A stretch of 64,000 nucleotides of DNA from Desulfoscipio geothermicus (lineage in GTDB: Bacteria; Bacillota; Desulfotomaculia; Desulfotomaculales; Desulfallaceae), in contig JAENZP010000001.1 of NCBI GenBank assembly GCA_016841205.1, positions 310,001-374,000 of the forward strand. Direction: 5' to 3'. This document shows positions 32,643 to 40,454 of the stretch, piece after piece; the first letter of the stretch is position 1, and each line of letters opens with the position of its first letter. The notes below the pieces were generated by a model that was not told where the DNA came from, did no database searches, and saw nothing but the letters and a program-made list of their open reading frames with translations. The translations under genes and the position numbers were made by a program.

Positions 32643-32657
32643 CTATTCCCACTCAAT
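32643..32657. repeat. att site in the guaA 3' end (copy 1)
   Basis: CTATTCCCACTCAAT, which on the minus strand encodes the end of guaA (IEWE and the TAG stop). Insertion here leaves guaA intact. Variant copies lie at 13994 and 12393. Confidence 0.75.
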
Positions 32658-34184
32658 GGTCGCTGGAGGCTTGGAGGTGATGTCGTATACCACCCGGTTG
32701 ACACCGTTCACCTCATTGACAATACGATTTGATATACGCTCCAGCACATCATAAGGTATTTTGGCCCAGTCGGCAGTCATACCGTCATGAGAGTGAACTG
32801 CCCTGATGGCCACCGTATGGGCATAGCTACGCTCGTCACCCATCACACCAACGCTGTATAAATTAGGCAGCACGGCAAAGTACTGCCAAATTTCCCTGTC
32901 CAGCCCGGCCCTGGCGATTTCACCAGTCACAATAGCGTCAGCTTCCTGGAGCAAAGCTATTTTATCCGTGCTGACCTCACCCAGTATACGTACGGCCAAG
33001 CCGGGCCCGGGGAACGGCTGGCGCCAAACTATCTCGGCTGGCATACCCAGTTCCTCACCCACCTGGCGCACCTCGTCTTTAAAAAGCCAGCGCAACGGCT
33101 CAATCAGGGACATACGCATATCCTCCGGCAGGCCGCCCACATTATGGTGCGATTTAATCACCGCCGCTGTGGCCGTACCGCTTTCCACCACGTCCGGGTA
33201 CAAGGTACCCTGTACCAGGAAATCTATCTCGCCAAGCTTGGCGGCTTCTTCCTCAAATACTCGGATAAACTCCTCACCGATTATTTTACGCTTACGTTCC
33301 GGGTCGGAAACCCCCTGCAGTTTAGTTAAAAACCGCTGCGCTGCATCTACATATATTAGGTTTATGTTGAAGCCTTCACGGAAAAAATGCTGTACCGCTT
33401 CGGCTTCCCCTTTACGTAAAAGCCCGTGATTAACAAATACACAGGTCAGCTGATCTCCGATGGCCCGGTGTACCAGTACGGCGGCCACCGATGAGTCCAC
33501 ACCGCCGCTTAATGCGCAAAGCACCTGCCGGCTGCCCACCTCTTGCTTAATGTCCACCACGGTATGCTCGATAAAGGATTCCATCGTCCAGCTACCGCTG
33601 CAACCGCAAATATCATATAAGAAATAGTGTAATATATCCAGCCCTTTGGGGGTATGCACCACTTCGGGATGAAACTGCACCGCGTACAGCCCGCGCTCTT
33701 CATCTGCCATTGCGGCTACCGGAGCCTGCCCGGTACGGGCCAGGATACTAAAACCAGGCGGCGCTGCCTCCACCAGATCACCGTGACTCATCCAGCACTG
33801 ATCCCGCTCCCCCATACAACCAAGCAGGCCATCCCCGGGAATAACCTCAAGCTCTGTTTTACCATACTCCTTCTGATTGGCCCGGTTTACCTCACCACCC
33901 AGTTGCAGCGCCATTAACTGCATACCGTAACAAATACCAAAAATGGGTATGTTTAAATCGTATATCGCCTTATCCACCACCGGAGCGTCTTTTTGGTACA
34001 CACTGGAAGGACCTCCGGAAAATATAATGCCCCGCGGTTTTTTGGCCTCTAATTGAGCCAGCGGGGTGTTAAATGGCAGCATTTCACAAAAGACATTGCC
34101 CTCGCGAATACGGCGGGCAATCAGTTGGCTGTATTGCCCGCCAAAATCGAGGACTACAACCATCTCCCGTTCGGGTACAGACAT
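32643..34184 (-). CDS. guaA: GMP synthase (glutamine-hydrolysing)
   Basis: Converts XMP to GMP with ATP and glutamine. The 513-residue protein has the class I glutaminase domain (FGICYGMQ nucleophile near residue 80 and the FHPE histidine near 170), the ATP-pyrophosphatase P-loop [10 protein letters not shown] near 225 and the universal C-terminal [11 protein letters not shown] 34184 follows TTGGAGG. It is followed, through the inserted elements, by the purine operon on the same strand, which was its original neighbour. Its last codons serve as the element attachment site. Confidence 0.97.
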
Positions 34185-34274
34185 CTTTACTTTCCTCCAA
34201 TACGCAAACTATTTTCATGGTACAGGGTGTAAAAAGGTTGAAGATTGACTATTGCTCATGTATGCTAAAAAGTA

Positions 34275-34817
34275 CTACTTAACTTGATAGATCTCCTTTT
34301 TCAATACATAAATTTCGGGTAAATAACGGTATTTTTCATTATAATCAAGTCCGTAGCCGACCACAAATTGATCAAGTATAGTAAAGCCATTGTATTTTAC
34401 CGGCACTTCGGCTTGCCGTCGGGAGGGCTTGTCCAGCATGGTGCAAATACGCACGCTGGCCGGGTTACGTGCCTTTAAAATTTTCAGCAAATAGGTCATT
34501 GTAAGCCCGGTATCCACGATATCCTCAACAATGAGTATATGCCGGTTTTCAATACTTTTATCCAGATCCTTTAAGATGCGCACCACACCGGTTGATTTGC
34601 TGGAGGCCCCGTAACTGGACAAGGCCATAAAATCAATGCTCACGTCTATACTCATGGCTCTGATTAAATCGGCCATGAACACCGCGGCACCTTTCAAAAT
34701 ACCTACCATTAAAAGATCTTGGCCTGCGTAATCCCTGGAAATAATGTCCCCCAGTTCATGCACCTTGTTATCTATGTCCACTCTAGAAAATAAAATTTTT
34801 TCGACATCGGGGTGCAA
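34275..34817 (-). CDS. hpt: Hypoxanthine (guanine) phosphoribosyltransferase
   Basis: Salvages hypoxanthine and guanine with PRPP. The 180-residue enzyme contains DLLMVGILKGAAVFMADL, the FMALSSYGAS flexible-loop region and the PRPP-binding ILIVEDIVDTGLTM near residue 97. Start is TTG 34817, eight bases after AGGAGG. It is transcribed leftward toward guaA from its own promoter, so guanine salvage and guaA probably share transcription. Confidence 0.95.
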   Translation of the reverse strand: MHPDVEKILFSRVDIDNKVHELGDIISRDYAGQDLLMVGILKGAAVFMADLIRAMSIDVSIDFMALSSYGASSKSTGVVRILKDLDKSIENRHILIVEDIVDTGLTMTYLLKILKARNPASVRICTMLDKPSRRQAEVPVKYNGFTILDQFVVGYGLDYNEKYRYLPEIYVLKKEIYQVK

Positions 34818-34849
34818 AATAAATTCCTCCTAATATCTAAATCTGGATT

Positions 34850-34879
34850 ATTATAACAAGACTTTAAAAACATTGTCAA
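34850..34879 (-). promoter_or_regulatory. Promoter of hpt-guaA
   Basis: TTGACA (34874-34879) and TATAAT (34850-34855) on the minus strand, 18-base spacer. Confidence 0.75.
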
Positions 34880-34895
34880 TATACAGGGCCTTATG

Positions 34896-35591
34896 TTACA
34901 TTTCCGGTGGCATTACTTTGATCTGTTTGTCAAAATCCCACATCTGCATAGTTATCTCCAGTTTATCCTTTTTACCGTTTTTACCGGTGGCCTCGATATG
35001 CGCTTTTTTAATAACCTGTTCACCAGGATGCACCCAAACCCGGTATTTAAAATCATCATAACTTAATTCCATTAACTCATTTTGAACAATGGGTTGAAAT
35101 TCCAATACCCTGAATTTATCGTTATTGATTTTTTCCGCTTCCAGCTCCTGAATAAAAGGTACATCTTTGAAATTGAAATTCCCCAGCGGGTTAAATTCAG
35201 TAACAAAAAGCTCGGACTCGGCCATTTTATTGCCTTCCAGGCTGGTCCAATTATCAGACCAGTAACCCTTGAGAAAGGTTTGCTCACCGGTATGGATAAA
35301 TTCCACCGGCATATCCTGCATGGTACCGGTTATATGTATACTATCCGGGGCCACCCGCTCGCCTTTGACGTCAGAGATAACATTATCCCCTATTTTAACG
35401 AGCATACTAAAACGAAATGAGCTAGCATTAAGGGTTTTTTCCAAAGCAGAGGCAAAAAGTTCCTCCGGCGACACATGAACTTTAGCATAGTAAGTTCCAC
35501 CAATCCGGTAAATACCAAGCACTAGTAATATTGCAGCCAGTAAACCCAGCAGTATCTTTTTATCCAACACCAGCCAATGCGGCTTAGCCAA
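34896..35591 (-). CDS. Membrane-anchored LolA/LppX-like protein
   Basis: A 231-residue protein with a single N-terminal membrane helix (about residues 12-30) and an exterior domain with the half-barrel strand pattern of LolA/LppX-type lipid-binding proteins (SFRFSMLVKIGDNVISDVKG, DSIHITGTMQDMPVEF). It lacks a lipobox cysteine. Firmicutes have many such proteins of unknown role. ATG 35591 follows a GGAGTGAA site. Assignment to the fold is by pattern only. Confidence 0.6.
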   Translation of the reverse strand: MAKPHWLVLDKKILLGLLAAILLVLGIYRIGGTYYAKVHVSPEELFASALEKTLNASSFRFSMLVKIGDNVISDVKGERVAPDSIHITGTMQDMPVEFIHTGEQTFLKGYWSDNWTSLEGNKMAESELFVTEFNPLGNFNFKDVPFIQELEAEKINNDKFRVLEFQPIVQNELMELSYDDFKYRVWVHPGEQVIKKAHIEATGKNGKKDKLEITMQMWDFDKQIKVMPPEM

Positions 35592-35745
35592 ATTAATTCA
35601 CTCCTTTGTACCAAAAAAATATACATGTAAATTTATACGATATTCATCCCATAAATATTCCTTTTGGCAGTGCTATCCTGTTTTTTAAATATCAATTGTG
35701 GTAAAATATGAATGTTTTAAAAATAAATAGGGAGTGCTTGGCAAG

Positions 35746-37389
35746 TTGGACATACAGGAAATGCAAAGGGTAGTCGATCGCTGGATCGGTCAGTTTGAAG
35801 AAGGTTATTGGCCTCCGCTGGCCATGCTGGCCCGTCTTACCGAAGAAGTCGGAGAGCTGGCCCGGGAAGTCAACCACCGGTTCGGCACAAAGCCAAAAAA
35901 ACCGGAAGAGCCGGAAGGCGACCTGGACATGGAATTGGCGGATATTTTATTTATCATTATCTGTTACGCCAACTCACTAGGCATTAACCTAAATGAAGCA
36001 TTTGTTAAAATGATGGAAAAATATCAAACAAGGGACTCTTACAGATGGACCAGAAAAAAACATACAGGAGGGAAAAAAATGGCCACCATCACTCCCCTGC
36101 AAGGCCTGCGATATGATGAAAAAAAAGCCGGCAACATTATGAATCTGGTAACACCACCATATGACGTAATCGACGCCACCGCCCAGGAAGGATACTATCA
36201 GCTTAACCCGTACAATGTTATCCGCCTGGAATACGGCAAAACAACACCCTCCGATAATGATACGGACAACCGTTACACCCGGGCAGCAGATTTTTTCCGC
36301 CAGTGGCAGAGCGAGGGTATCTTAAAACCAGAGGATGAACCGGCTCTTTACTTATACCAGCAGCAGTTTGATGTTGATGGTAAAACAATGGTACGCACCG
36401 GTATAATTTGCGGTGTCAAGCTGGAACCGTATGAAAATGGGGTAGTCCTGCCGCACGAGGAAACCATGCCCAAGCATAAAGCCGACCGGCTGGCTTTGAT
36501 GCAGGCCTGCGGGGCTAATTTCAGTCCCATATTCGGGTTGTACAGCGACCCGGAGCGCCAGATTGATCATTTGCTGCTTAATGCAGTGCAAGATGCACCC
36601 GGCAGCATTAACTTTACCGATGAGATGGGACTAGGACACAGGCTTTGGGTCATCACAGATAAAGCGCTGGTCGAGCAAGTGCAGCAATTAATGCAGGAGC
36701 AGCGCATCTTTATAGCCGACGGCCACCACCGTTACGAAACCGCGCTAAATTATGCCCGTCAAAACCCAGACAAACCCGCAGCCTGTTATATCATGATGAC
36801 TTTGGTTAACTTATATGATCCTGGCCTGGTTATATTACCCACCCACAGGCTGGTTGTGGAAAGCAAAGTGGATAATCAACAGCTGCTGGCGAATTTACAG
36901 GAAGATTTTGTAGTAGAAAAAACCACCGCCGCAGACGTTAACCAAGTTACCGAATTAATGAATAGTATAGCGGAATTTCAGGGTAACGGCGGCACCGCGC
37001 ACCGGCAGGTTTTCGGGCTGTATGTTGGGAAAAACGTTTATTACACATTAACCTTGCGCAACAAAGATATAATCAACAATAAAATGCCCGCTGAACACTC
37101 AACTGCCTGGCGCAGGTTGGATGTATCAGTATTGCAAAAATTAATCATGGAGAACCAGCTGGGCATAGATATGCAAGCTGTAGCCGCCGGTGATGTGATT
37201 AAATACACCCGCAGTGCCCAAGAAGCAGTGCAAGTGGTGGATCAAGGCGAATGCCAGATGTCATTTTTAATGAATCCCACGCTGATCGCGGAAGTTACTG
37301 AAGTAGCCACTAACGGGGAAAAAATGCCGCAAAAATCCACTTTCTTTTATCCCAAGCTGATTACCGGGCTGGTTATTAATAAGTTCTAA
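35746..37389 (+). CDS. MazG-like domain read through into a DUF1015 protein
   Basis: One uninterrupted frame of 547 residues encodes two normally separate proteins. Residues about 1-105 are a MazG-type nucleotide pyrophosphohydrolase (LTEEVGELAREVNHRFG, the EExxE motif, then DLDMELADILFIIICYAN). After YRWTRKK, where MazG proteins usually stop, the frame continues through an ACAGGAGGG ribosome site into an ATG (about 36079) and ITPLQGLRYDEKKAG, the normal start of DUF1015. So both a fusion and a separate DUF1015 product are possible. TTG 35746 is taken as start after AGGGAG; GTG 35734 is an alternative. Confidence 0.8.
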   Translation: MDIQEMQRVVDRWIGQFEEGYWPPLAMLARLTEEVGELAREVNHRFGTKPKKPEEPEGDLDMELADILFIIICYANSLGINLNEAFVKMMEKYQTRDSYRWTRKKHTGGKKMATITPLQGLRYDEKKAGNIMNLVTPPYDVIDATAQEGYYQLNPYNVIRLEYGKTTPSDNDTDNRYTRAADFFRQWQSEGILKPEDEPALYLYQQQFDVDGKTMVRTGIICGVKLEPYENGVVLPHEETMPKHKADRLALMQACGANFSPIFGLYSDPERQIDHLLLNAVQDAPGSINFTDEMGLGHRLWVITDKALVEQVQQLMQEQRIFIADGHHRYETALNYARQNPDKPAACYIMMTLVNLYDPGLVILPTHRLVVESKVDNQQLLANLQEDFVVEKTTAADVNQVTELMNSIAEFQGNGGTAHRQVFGLYVGKNVYYTLTLRNKDIINNKMPAEHSTAWRRLDVSVLQKLIMENQLGIDMQAVAAGDVIKYTRSAQEAVQVVDQGECQMSFLMNPTLIAEVTEVATNGEKMPQKSTFFYPKLITGLVINKF

Positions 37390-37418
37390 ATACCCGTAAA
37401 CAATATTGTCTTTAAACA

Positions 37419-37460
37419 AAGGAAGGGACAGGCACCAAGACCTGTTCCTTCCTTTTATTC
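37419..37460 (+). terminator. Terminator after the DUF1015 gene
   Basis: AAGGAAGGGACAGG (37419-37432) pairs with CCTGTTCCTTCCTT (37441-37454), then TTATTC. The GGGACAGGCACC loop side resembles a hairpin repeated in Peptococcaceae genomes. From here to 37736 (about 275 bases) I see no gene. Confidence 0.8.
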
Positions 37461-37736
37461 TTTTTACTTATTTTATTTACATCACAATTGGATGGCTATT
37501 ATGTAAAGATTCCATTGGTAATTTATTAAAAATGCCAGAGATGATTGGCGCACCGCACAATAACAGTTAGTATTATGGAATTGGGCGATAGTTCTCGCAT
37601 AACGACCGGTCAGTCTGATTGTTTGGATAATTGCTCCGAAGTTTGAAAGATACCTTGGGTGCGTTACATTTCATGTTATTGTTAAAGCGGCATTCCTCGA
37701 TGAAACAATTGACCCTGCTCATAACAGTACCTTCCT

Positions 37737-39401
37737 TCAATAAAATTTAGACCTAATGATCATCAGCAGTAACCAGAATCCCAATACTCCGGAAAATACA
37801 AAACCCATCTCCGCCAGGGGGATTCCCCAGAAGGTAATCCGCTCCCTAATCAACCATGAAGAACTAATCACCATAGCCCCTACAATAACACTATATACCA
37901 GGCGGTTAACCATAGTATTTAGTTGAAACAGCGCCCGTCCCAAATCAGGGTTCTCGGTTTTAACTTTGATTTCCCCCCTGGTGAGCAGTTCAATAATCTG
38001 ACCTAATTGACCGGGCAGGCGGGTAAAAAGCATATGATAATCGTTAATATTATCCCAAAAGAACTTTCTTATACTTTCCGGGCTAAACCGGTGCCGCAAC
38101 AATTTCTGCCCCAGCGGCTCAACCACCTGCACGATGCTGATCCGGGGATCCAGCTGGATGGAGATACCTTCGGTAATAATCAAGGTTTTCATCACCATAT
38201 TGAATTCAATTGGCACCTTAATACGGTGACGGTAGGCCAAGTTCATAATGTCTCCCATTGACTCAGCCACAGTGACTTGTCCCAGGGGAACCTCGTAATA
38301 TTTTTCCCGTACCCGCTCGATATCCCTGCGCAGTTGATACATATTGACATGCGCAGGTACTACACCAAGACTCATTACCGCCCTTAAAATTTCCGCAGAA
38401 TCCTTGTTGATTAAACCAAATACCAGTTTAATAATTTTACCTTGCATTTCCTTTTCCAGGTATCCCATCATGCCAAAATCAAGAAAAGCCAATCGCTCTT
38501 CCGGGAGCGCCAGTAAATTTCCAGGGTGCGGGTCGGCGTGGAAGAAACCGTCCATAAGTATTTGCTGCAAAATGGTTTCCACCAGCAAGCGTGCTATTTT
38601 CGCCGGATCGTGGCCTTCTGCCACCAGCTTGTCTTTATCCGTTATTTTTATGCCGTTCAGAAACTCCAGGGTGAGCACTTTTTTAGTTGTGTAATCCCAG
38701 TATACGGCAGGGATAGCCACATGCTGCACGCCGGCAAAATTCCTGGCCAGCGTTTCGGCATGCCTGCCTTCCAGTATAAAATCCAGCTCTTCTTGGAGGA
38801 TATGTTCAAAATCTTCCACCATTTCGGTGAATTTATAAATTTCACCCCAGGAAGTGTGTCTTTCCGCCAGGCCGGCCAGGTCATACAGTATTTCCATGTC
38901 GACTTCCATATTTGCCCGGATGCCCGGCCGCTGCACCTTTACAGCTACCCGGCAGCCATTGACCAGCTGAGCCTCGTGTACTTGGCCAATGGACGCGGAG
39001 GCCAGCGCCGTAGGATTGAAATGACTAAATATTTGGGAAAGCGACTGGCCAAGTTCCAGTTCTAAAAGTTCCCGAATATCCGCAAAAGGTACCGGGGGTA
39101 CTTTATCCTGCAATTTTTCCAGCTCTTTAATATATAAAGGGGCAAATAAATCCGACCGAGTGGAAAACAGCTGGCCTAGTTTGATAAAGGTTGGCCCCAA
39201 CTCCTCCAGCACCATACGCAGGCGTATCGCCTTACTTTCTTCAGGAGCGTTATTTTCTTGCGCTGGCAAATGCCCCGGTGGAGAAAATTCCGCCAGCCCC
39301 AGGCTATTGAGTACGTAACCAAAGCCATGCTTAACCAGCACATTAGCTATTTCCCGGTAGCGCCGGAAATGCTTGTACCGCTTTTGCAGCTGCAAGCGCA
39401 A
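37737..39401 (-). CDS. UbiB/ABC1/AarF family atypical kinase
   Basis: A 554-residue protein of the UbiB family. It has the family KxGQ block (GPTFIKLGQLFSTRSDL near residue 70), the Ala-rich nucleotide loop ASASIGQVHEA near 135, the catalytic-loop region MDGFFHADPHPGN near 288 and FLDFGMMG near 310. Two membrane helices lie at the C-terminus (about 495-550). In other bacteria these kinases support isoprenoid quinone synthesis; in this organism the role is unknown. Start is TTG 39401 behind a GGGGGTGG site. Confidence 0.9.
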   Translation of the reverse strand: MRLQLQKRYKHFRRYREIANVLVKHGFGYVLNSLGLAEFSPPGHLPAQENNAPEESKAIRLRMVLEELGPTFIKLGQLFSTRSDLFAPLYIKELEKLQDKVPPVPFADIRELLELELGQSLSQIFSHFNPTALASASIGQVHEAQLVNGCRVAVKVQRPGIRANMEVDMEILYDLAGLAERHTSWGEIYKFTEMVEDFEHILQEELDFILEGRHAETLARNFAGVQHVAIPAVYWDYTTKKVLTLEFLNGIKITDKDKLVAEGHDPAKIARLLVETILQQILMDGFFHADPHPGNLLALPEERLAFLDFGMMGYLEKEMQGKIIKLVFGLINKDSAEILRAVMSLGVVPAHVNMYQLRRDIERVREKYYEVPLGQVTVAESMGDIMNLAYRHRIKVPIEFNMVMKTLIITEGISIQLDPRISIVQVVEPLGQKLLRHRFSPESIRKFFWDNINDYHMLFTRLPGQLGQIIELLTRGEIKVKTENPDLGRALFQLNTMVNRLVYSVIVGAMVISSSWLIRERITFWGIPLAEMGFVFSGVLGFWLLLMIIRSKFY

Positions 39402-39632
39402 AAAACCACCCCCTACCTACCACAGGCTTAGTTTATAGAATTCCTGCATTTACAAATTACATACTTTCTCATTAAGCATAACACAGATAAACTAAACCTG
39501 CTTAATAGGAATAAGATAAATATAAGATGCCCAAGGTATGCTAAATGAATATTGTTTAGCTAGAAACAGTACCAATCCTGCCTGCCAGTATAATACATTA
39601 GAATTCTGTTTGAAAAGAAAGGATGAAGCGTT

Positions 39633-40454
39633 TTGCAGGTTAGCTTAATACCTGTGGCCATCGCTGCTAACCCGGCTGTTTTGCCCGGAACCACAGCCAT
39701 TGTATTTGATGTACTGCGGGCCACCAGCACCATTGTAACAGCTCTGGCCTCGGGTTACCGGAGGGTATACCCGGTGGCAGATGCCGGTACAGCCTTGGCG
39801 CTGGCCAATGAGCACGGTTTTGTGCTGGCTGGTGAGCGGAAAGGAGATAAAATTGCCGGTTTTCCCCACGGTAATTCACCCCTGGAATTTATCGGCGGGC
39901 CGGATGCAGCATACCATATGTTGGAAATTAACAAAGGATCTAGCTTCAACAGCAATATATGGAAAACTAGCGATGAATTAGTTCTTACAACAACCAATGG
40001 CACGAAAGCCATCCGCTGGGCGCTGTCTGCCCATAAGGTATTCACGGGATCGCTGCTTAATGCCCGGGCTGTAGCGCAAGCCGCCTTGCAGGAAGGATTA
40101 GATATCAGTCTGGTGTGTGCGGGTACAGCGGGGCGCTTTTCACTGGAAGATTCGCTGGGAGCAGGGTTTGTTTTAGTGGAAATTATACGGCAACTCAGCG
40201 GGCCGGCTAGCGGACAACCGGCTGCAAGTATTAATATGGATGACCTAGCCATAGCGGCATATGGATTGGCCCGCTTTTATCACAACAACCCGCTGTCAGG
40301 GCTGTTTGCCGGGCAGCACGGCCAAAAATTGCTGCGCCGGGGCCGGGAGGAAGACCTGCAATGGTGCGCCCAGTTAAACCGATATGATATAGCACCGGTA
40401 TTTATGGAAGAATTTATTACCATTAGCGACGACCTTCCACTTGCCACGCACTAA
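39633..40454 (+). CDS. comB: 2-phosphosulfolactate phosphatase family protein
   Basis: Hydrolyses 2-phosphosulfolactate to sulfolactate, a step of coenzyme M synthesis in methanogens; many bacteria without coenzyme M also carry it, perhaps for sulfolactate production. The 273-residue protein shows IVFDVLRATSTIVTAL near residue 23, LAGERKGDKIAGFPHGNSPLE near 65 and LTTTNGTKAI near 118, all family blocks. Start is TTG 39633 after AAAGGATG. It stands alone. Confidence 0.88.
   Translation: MQVSLIPVAIAANPAVLPGTTAIVFDVLRATSTIVTALASGYRRVYPVADAGTALALANEHGFVLAGERKGDKIAGFPHGNSPLEFIGGPDAAYHMLEINKGSSFNSNIWKTSDELVLTTTNGTKAIRWALSAHKVFTGSLLNARAVAQAALQEGLDISLVCAGTAGRFSLEDSLGAGFVLVEIIRQLSGPASGQPAASINMDDLAIAAYGLARFYHNNPLSGLFAGQHGQKLLRRGREEDLQWCAQLNRYDIAPVFMEEFITISDDLPLATH

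Follow-up and report, generated by a model that had tools for sequence, protein, structure and literature searches.

An in-frame mazG-DUF1015 gene fusion that retains the former DUF1015 start site in Desulfoscipio geothermicus

Introduction

In a 64,000 nt stretch of the Desulfoscipio geothermicus genome (hereafter the window), a MazG domain runs without a stop codon into a DUF1015 domain. Does this frame represent a genuine fusion of two co-operonic genes from which both products could be made, or was the stop codon between them lost by sequence error? The original prediction, made from the letters of the window, named both possibilities and proposed that a house-cleaning pyrophosphohydrolase fused to DUF1015 could hint at the substrate of that family. 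The literature searched, in which no query directly paired both names, contained no report of a MazG-DUF1015 fusion, and none on DUF1015 function was found as judged by titles and the beginnings of abstracts. The two families themselves are known, and what is novel is their combination. Here we describe the fused gene, its counterparts in the genus, the class and the phylum, and the likely activities of its two halves.

Results

A single frame joins MazG and DUF1015

Translation of the window yielded a single frame of 547 codons on the forward strand (35746-37389), in which six linker codons connect a MazG domain to DUF1015 (Table 1), and both Pfam domains (PF03819 and PF06245) matched within this one protein, in agreement with the predicted read-through. 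The frame, whose stop codon ends at 37389, is open from GTG at 35734 (551 aa) or TTG at 35746 (547 aa); TTG is favoured as the start because the aligned homologues of two genomes (G013 and G014) have Met at this position. The junction reads AGA-AAA-AAA-CAT-ACA-GGA-GGG-AAA-AAA-ATG and includes two A7 runs, with ACAGGAGGG at 36064-36072 and a 7 nt spacer between AGGAGG and ATG. Both signals said to be kept at the junction, the AGGAGG and the ATG, are indeed there. Promoter-like sites (4 found versus 4.0 expected) and terminator-like sites (2 found versus a mean of 2.9 in shuffles) occur at chance level in the region.

Table 1. Features of the fused gene and its surroundings, in window coordinates
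Feature	Position	Strand	Basis or remark
Likely Shine-Dalgarno GGGAG of the fused gene	35730..35734	+	Spacer of 11 to TTG; inference from sequence
MazG (YpjD-type), 105 codons, residues 1-105	35746..36060	+	Pfam PF03819; PDB 2gta (YpjD) match
A7 run	36054..36060	+	A6 in split relatives G005 and G002
Linker HTGGKK, residues 106-111, once mazG 3′ end or intergenic	36061..36078	+
Retained internal Shine-Dalgarno AGGAGG	36066..36071	+	AGGAGG in 7/7 congeners
Retained internal ATG	36079..36081	+	Homologous to DUF1015 start of split relatives
DUF1015, SerK/SbnI-like fold, 436 aa, from residue 112	36079..37389	+	Pfam PF06245, AlphaFold model, PDB fold matches
Terminator-like stem-loop, 15 pairs, T tail, after the fused gene	37418..37455	+	Sequence scan

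In the surrounding segment (32643-40454), the fused gene has as divergent neighbours guaA- and hpt-like genes, assigned by eye, and a gene at 34896-35591 without a Pfam match, and the same order is seen in loci L108 (Desulfallas sp. Bu1-1), L109 and L114. Downstream of the fused gene come an ABC1/AarF-like gene and a gene resembling that of 2-phosphosulpholactate phosphatase.

The fusion is present in four of seven species of the genus

The same open fused frame was found in 4/7 sequenced species of the genus (G000, which is the window genome, G001, G003 and G004), and a stop codon is located at the junction in the other three (G002, G005 and G006). The fused proteins of the three other species are 94, 88 and 80% identical to that of the window, and one of the fused genomes is a single contig of 4,855,529 bases. 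A search of relatives, proposed as a check on the original prediction, therefore recovered the same fusion in three congeners, and a stop codon is not present in all close relatives. The fused junctions are translated as RKK-HTGGKK-M (G000 and G003), RKK-CTGGKK-M (G001) and RKK-HTGGKN-M (G004). The split G005 and G002 carry A6 instead of A7, followed by a TAG that overlaps the Shine-Dalgarno sequence of DUF1015, and in G006 a TAA comes immediately after RKK. The read-through with its junction signals is more than a chance occurrence, given that three other species share it and that in the three split species DUF1015 begins at the homologous ATG, preceded by the homologous AGGAGG; the internal start of the fused gene is homologous to the DUF1015 start of the split relatives.

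Divergence among the four fused species amounts to 6-20% of residues versus 23-46% of four-fold degenerate sites. The retention of the Shine-Dalgarno sequence at synonymous sites is a weak test, because 60/135 four-fold sites of DUF1015 are invariant among these species anyway.

One A more or less restores a 547-codon frame in all three split congeners. In G005 and G002 (loci L005 and L006), A-AAA-AAC or A-AAA-AAT precedes the TAG, and a -1 slip there would yield the fusion. However, a single base likewise opens the frame in 13/13 out-of-frame short-gap pairs outside the genus, so that the near-fusion in G005 and G002 is not above chance. The idea that the A run acts as a phase-variable or programmed switch was rejected on the same grounds.

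The trees require at least two changes in the history of the fusion

In the protein and DNA trees of the joined domains, the split G006 branches first, followed by the fused G004, G003, G000 and G001, and the split G005 and G002 are innermost. Two of these forks are weakly supported in the protein tree (82/87 and 82/77), and the forks of the DNA tree have support of 93/93 or better. L020 (G011) was left out of the domain tree, in which G112 and G072 represented the class outside the family. In a guaA tree without an outgroup, G005 and G002 stand beside G000 and G001, the four together with support of 98/98; G003 follows as their nearest neighbour, and the placement of G004 and G006 is weak (74/74). 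This tree also requires at least two changes, and as drawn it needs a third if the ancestor was split.

Most simply, the domain trees would be explained by a fusion gained once and undone once. The clustering alone is not strongly shown, because shuffled labels needed as few changes in 29/500 (protein), 86/500 (DNA) and 213/500 (guaA) cases and the rows are few. The fusion appears to be tolerated rather than required, one sub-clade having apparently re-split the genes, and this one apparent reversal in seven species argues for little or no strong advantage from the fusion.

mazG and DUF1015 are neighbours in much of the class

We compared the DUF1015 loci in the class to which the genus belongs. 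Searches of the class and of the order gave an identical set of 113 genomes, of which 102 had a match and 91 gave a DUF1015 locus. Six second or truncated pieces (L008, L009, L010, L018, L019 and L021) were left out before loci were counted, and the truncated G008 was dropped. G098 and G050-G058 also fall outside the 91 loci, the latter because their strongest matches reach E-values of about 1e-42 to 1e-45, as expected from mazG without DUF1015. In G050-G058 (genus g27 of family f8), the matches listed, which come from 5/9 genomes, are mazG; these nine genomes may lack DUF1015.

In 62/91 loci, 4 fused and 58 split, DUF1015 is preceded on its own strand by mazG; L095 is not among the 62 although mazG lies upstream, since its DUF1015 start was not resolved. 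The split pairs have the same order and strand as the fused gene, from which they differ by the stop codon between the genes and by spacings that range from an overlap to a gap of 860 nt. Six pairs overlap, 5 have no gap, and 13, 28 and 5 have gaps of 1-25, 26-150 and 151-300 nt, respectively, with 1 above 300 nt; the distance is 25 nt or less in 24/58. All but three of the split pairs listed have a Shine-Dalgarno-like site before DUF1015. In the gap-0 pairs (L011-L014 and L023), the TAA of mazG directly abuts the in-frame ATG and the Shine-Dalgarno sequence lies inside the mazG end, so that these loci are one base change away from fusion.

Six-frame translation revealed no fusion among the 91 loci except the four of the genus. 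Long frames covering both domains had been considered for several genera of the class, and were rejected since the two domains are in separate frames in 87/91 loci. Likewise, no locus is fused among 80 named DUF1015 loci, the best of at least 573 that were confirmed, and mazG was found in 6 of the 80. In a sample of 149 genomes of the phylum, 79 of which matched at an E-value of 1e-20 or better, only the match of the window genome spans both domains without a stop, as judged from the match table rather than from translation of individual loci. Adjacent but separate pairs were seen in G159, G197 and G231 of this sample and in G037 of the order. These results support the prediction that stop loss joined two co-operonic genes, the pair being common in the class and the stop codon being absent in 4/7 and present in 3/7 congeners.

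The MazG half resembles Bacillus subtilis YpjD

The MazG half scored 59.8 bits against PF03819 (E-value 3.2e-16; curated cut-off 22). MazG proteins bind metal through an acidic EExxE...ExxD motif. The corresponding residues E33, E34, E37, E63 and D66 are present in 7/7 congeners, and since they are intact, pyrophosphohydrolase activity, which converts NTP to NMP and PPi, is likely for this domain. The best solved relative is YpjD of B. subtilis, a member of the MazG family (PDB 2gta; E-value 5e-39), which aligns with residues 4-106, through the RWTRK end. The YpjD chain comprises 119 residues; the fused frame instead continues into DUF1015. Two more frames of this kind lie elsewhere in the window genome, one a two-domain MazG of 494 aa and the other short and MazG-like. 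Given the separate two-domain frame, the fused domain, termed house-cleaning in the original prediction, is a YpjD-type paralogue. The MazG half of the AlphaFold model is poor (block pLDDT 47-70), which is probably owed to the few alignment rows.

The DUF1015 half has a free serine kinase-like fold

DUF1015 occurs once in the window genome and matched PF06245 over its full length (profile positions 1-325 of 325) with 322 bits (E-value 4.6e-96; cut-off 25.8). Its half of the AlphaFold model is confident, with pLDDT mostly 90 or higher. When this half was searched against PDB by Foldseek, ranks 1-9 (5x0b, 5x0e, 5x0g, 5x0j, 5x0k, 5ujd, 5uje, 6nr6 and 1vk1) all had a probability of 1.00. By their titles, five are free serine kinase entries, three are SbnI (5ujd, 5uje and 6nr6), and 1vk1 is a conserved hypothetical protein of Pyrococcus furiosus, presumably the SerK homologue PF0380. 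In VIA-align, these nine chains had Z-scores of 12.4-14.8 over 212-230 residues at 11-15% identity, followed by sulfiredoxin at 4.4. The model thus indicates that DUF1015 has the SerK-type ParB-like fold of free serine kinases. SerK (TK0378) and SbnI are accordingly the closest known systems in fold, and differ in size, the matched chains having 232-254 residues versus the 436 of DUF1015.

Sequence comparison gave a fainter signal. The DUF1015 profile had one match in PDB up to an E-value of 10, again 1vk1, whose E-value of 0.35 is not significant alone; this alignment pairs IADGHHRY with IVDGHHRW (the shared DGHHR piece contributing 2.1 bits) and a PQKST stretch with SPKTT. A single-sequence search of PDB returned two gyrase matches only (E-values 0.9-0.96). 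DGHHR is invariant in 36 aligned homologues. Glu30, the residue mutated in the titles of SerK PDB entries, is catalytic in SerK, and the invariant H126-E127 of DUF1015 would fall roughly at Glu30, as judged by aligned ranges. In locus L111 (196-1863), a DUF1015 protein of 556 aa has its match end at 443, and the approximately 110 extra C-terminal residues contain no Pfam domain.

SerK is described as an ADP-dependent free serine kinase, and in Desulfurococcales its gene has genes for 3-phosphoglycerate dehydrogenase and an aminotransferase in the vicinity (PMC5120207). The fold link of DUF1015 is partly in print already, because a 2025 survey of the ParB-CTPase fold names 'DU1015' among the 50 proteins selected for testing, and treats SerK and SbnI as enzymes having this fold (PMC12704722). 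The survey reports that members of the fold bind different NTPs and does not mention MazG (PMC12704722).

Some DUF1015 neighbours are of serine type

Among the 80 named loci, a class-V aminotransferase gene lies beside or near DUF1015 in at least 5 (L122, L132, L154, L171 and L187) and a 2-hydroxyacid dehydrogenase gene in at least 3 (L122, L132 and L135), giving a serine-type total of at least 6/80; these counts are lower bounds, as many flanks were truncated and names were given to just a part of the gene clusters. The dehydrogenase of L122 passes the phosphoglycerate dehydrogenase cut-off (718.8 versus 454 bits), that of L132 stays below it (322.2), and that of L135 scores best to D-lactate dehydrogenase models. 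None of these aminotransferases passes the serC cut-off, their best scores being to other class-V aminotransferases, also below cut-off. In L122 (948-5293), a T-box leader is followed in a row by the class-V aminotransferase, phosphoglycerate dehydrogenase and DUF1015 genes; read by eye, the specifier may be UCC (Ser).

In the genus, phosphoglycerate dehydrogenase is present in 7/7 genomes, on another contig in the window genome. A cysteine route was also considered, because a genus lacking serine acetyltransferase might depend on a serine kinase. The cysE cut-off is passed in 3/7, and in the remaining 4 an open frame of 315-319 aa encodes a relative with a lower score; given this mixed result, the idea was dropped. 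COG4198 is, we assume, the DUF1015 family. Glycine riboswitches are reported upstream of COG4198 genes (PMC2211319). At the gathering score, neither the window nor the 34/80 loci searched yielded a glycine riboswitch.

Taken together, the modelled fold, the neighbours and the literature favour serine as the substrate of DUF1015, without proof. As for the suggestion that the fusion hints at this substrate, the fusion alone says little; it is the fold that points to free serine. Work on a PPi-dependent serine kinase has reportedly been done in Thermotoga, no such paper was found in the literature searched, and T. maritima in our control list carries DUF1015. A PPi-dependent enzyme of the ribokinase family is described in another report (PMC5931981).

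Discussion

The fused gene, its presence in four species, its retained start site and the mazG-DUF1015 pair in much of the class are observations. They are best explained, with a probability of roughly 0.7, by a real, lineage-specific fusion that encodes a bifunctional pyrophosphohydrolase-serine kinase, also gives free DUF1015 from the retained start, and has been re-split in one sub-clade. The ancestor would have had a YpjD-type mazG followed by DUF1015, with the Shine-Dalgarno sequence of the latter in or beside the mazG 3′ end. Small changes at the A-rich junction would then have removed the mazG stop and joined the frames, leaving the Shine-Dalgarno sequence intact. Fusing was probably cheap, since the two genes were neighbours beforehand and the start site was not lost. 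The predicted product is a 547-aa protein combining an NTP pyrophosphohydrolase with a SerK-fold domain, whose substrate would be free L-serine or a closely related compound. The internal site would yield the 436-aa DUF1015 protein as well. We infer the use of this site in the cell from the sequence, and its conservation makes it plausible that both products are made. In-frame internal starts give two isoforms in infB, cheA and clpB, where a second Shine-Dalgarno sequence and ATG lie inside one frame as in the fused gene; the internal start of the fused gene differs in being the former start of a separate gene. In the re-split sub-clade, loss of one base in the A run together with a base change making TAG would have separated the genes again.

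The two A7 runs at the junction, and the one A fewer that the split G005 and G002 have in the first of them, invite the explanation that a homopolymer error in sequencing or assembly removed the stop codon and that the genes are really separate. Four assemblies, one of them a single contig, nevertheless agree on the frame. Moreover, deletion of one A from any of the four fused loci does not restore the TAG of the relatives, because the bases that would form it differ too, and the frame then ends 21-29 codons past RWTRKK. We consider such an error very improbable, and this half of the original prediction was discarded. The frame could alternatively be real and still give mainly separate proteins, if slippage at A7 ended MazG prematurely and internal initiation gave DUF1015, the fusion protein being minor and neutral. 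Ahead of the linker, frame 0 is A-AAA-AAA; an added A would bring a stop 18-37 codons beyond RWTRKK, a missing A would bring the stop mentioned above, and the internal start site is intact. A7 is, however, short for strong slippage, and the proximity of the other frame is typical of short gaps, as the pairs outside the genus illustrate, so that we regard this course as unlikely.

About equally doubtful is that the fusion is functional and selected, with tethering handing pyrophosphate or a nucleotide from MazG to a DUF1015 kinase. In the class, mazG and DUF1015 often occur as a pair, both domains are conserved, and the use of ADP by SerK (PMC5120207) and the different NTPs bound by members of its fold (PMC12704722) would fit such a transfer; the re-split sub-clade and the 58/62 class pairs that remain separate genes argue against it. 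Slightly less credible still is a Rosetta-stone reading, in which MazG breaks down excess NTPs and the tethered DUF1015 is a free serine kinase that works with it through pyrophosphate use or nucleotide sensing to make O-phosphoserine, the two forming a metabolic coupling unit that can be joined or split at a single A-rich site.

Under the preferred explanation of a real fusion in this lineage, this genus shows a gene fusion apparently caught both ways, the start of the former gene having been preserved inside the frame. The fusion links the uncharacterized DUF1015 to an NTP pyrophosphohydrolase, and the fold and some of its neighbours link DUF1015 to the phosphorylation of free serine.
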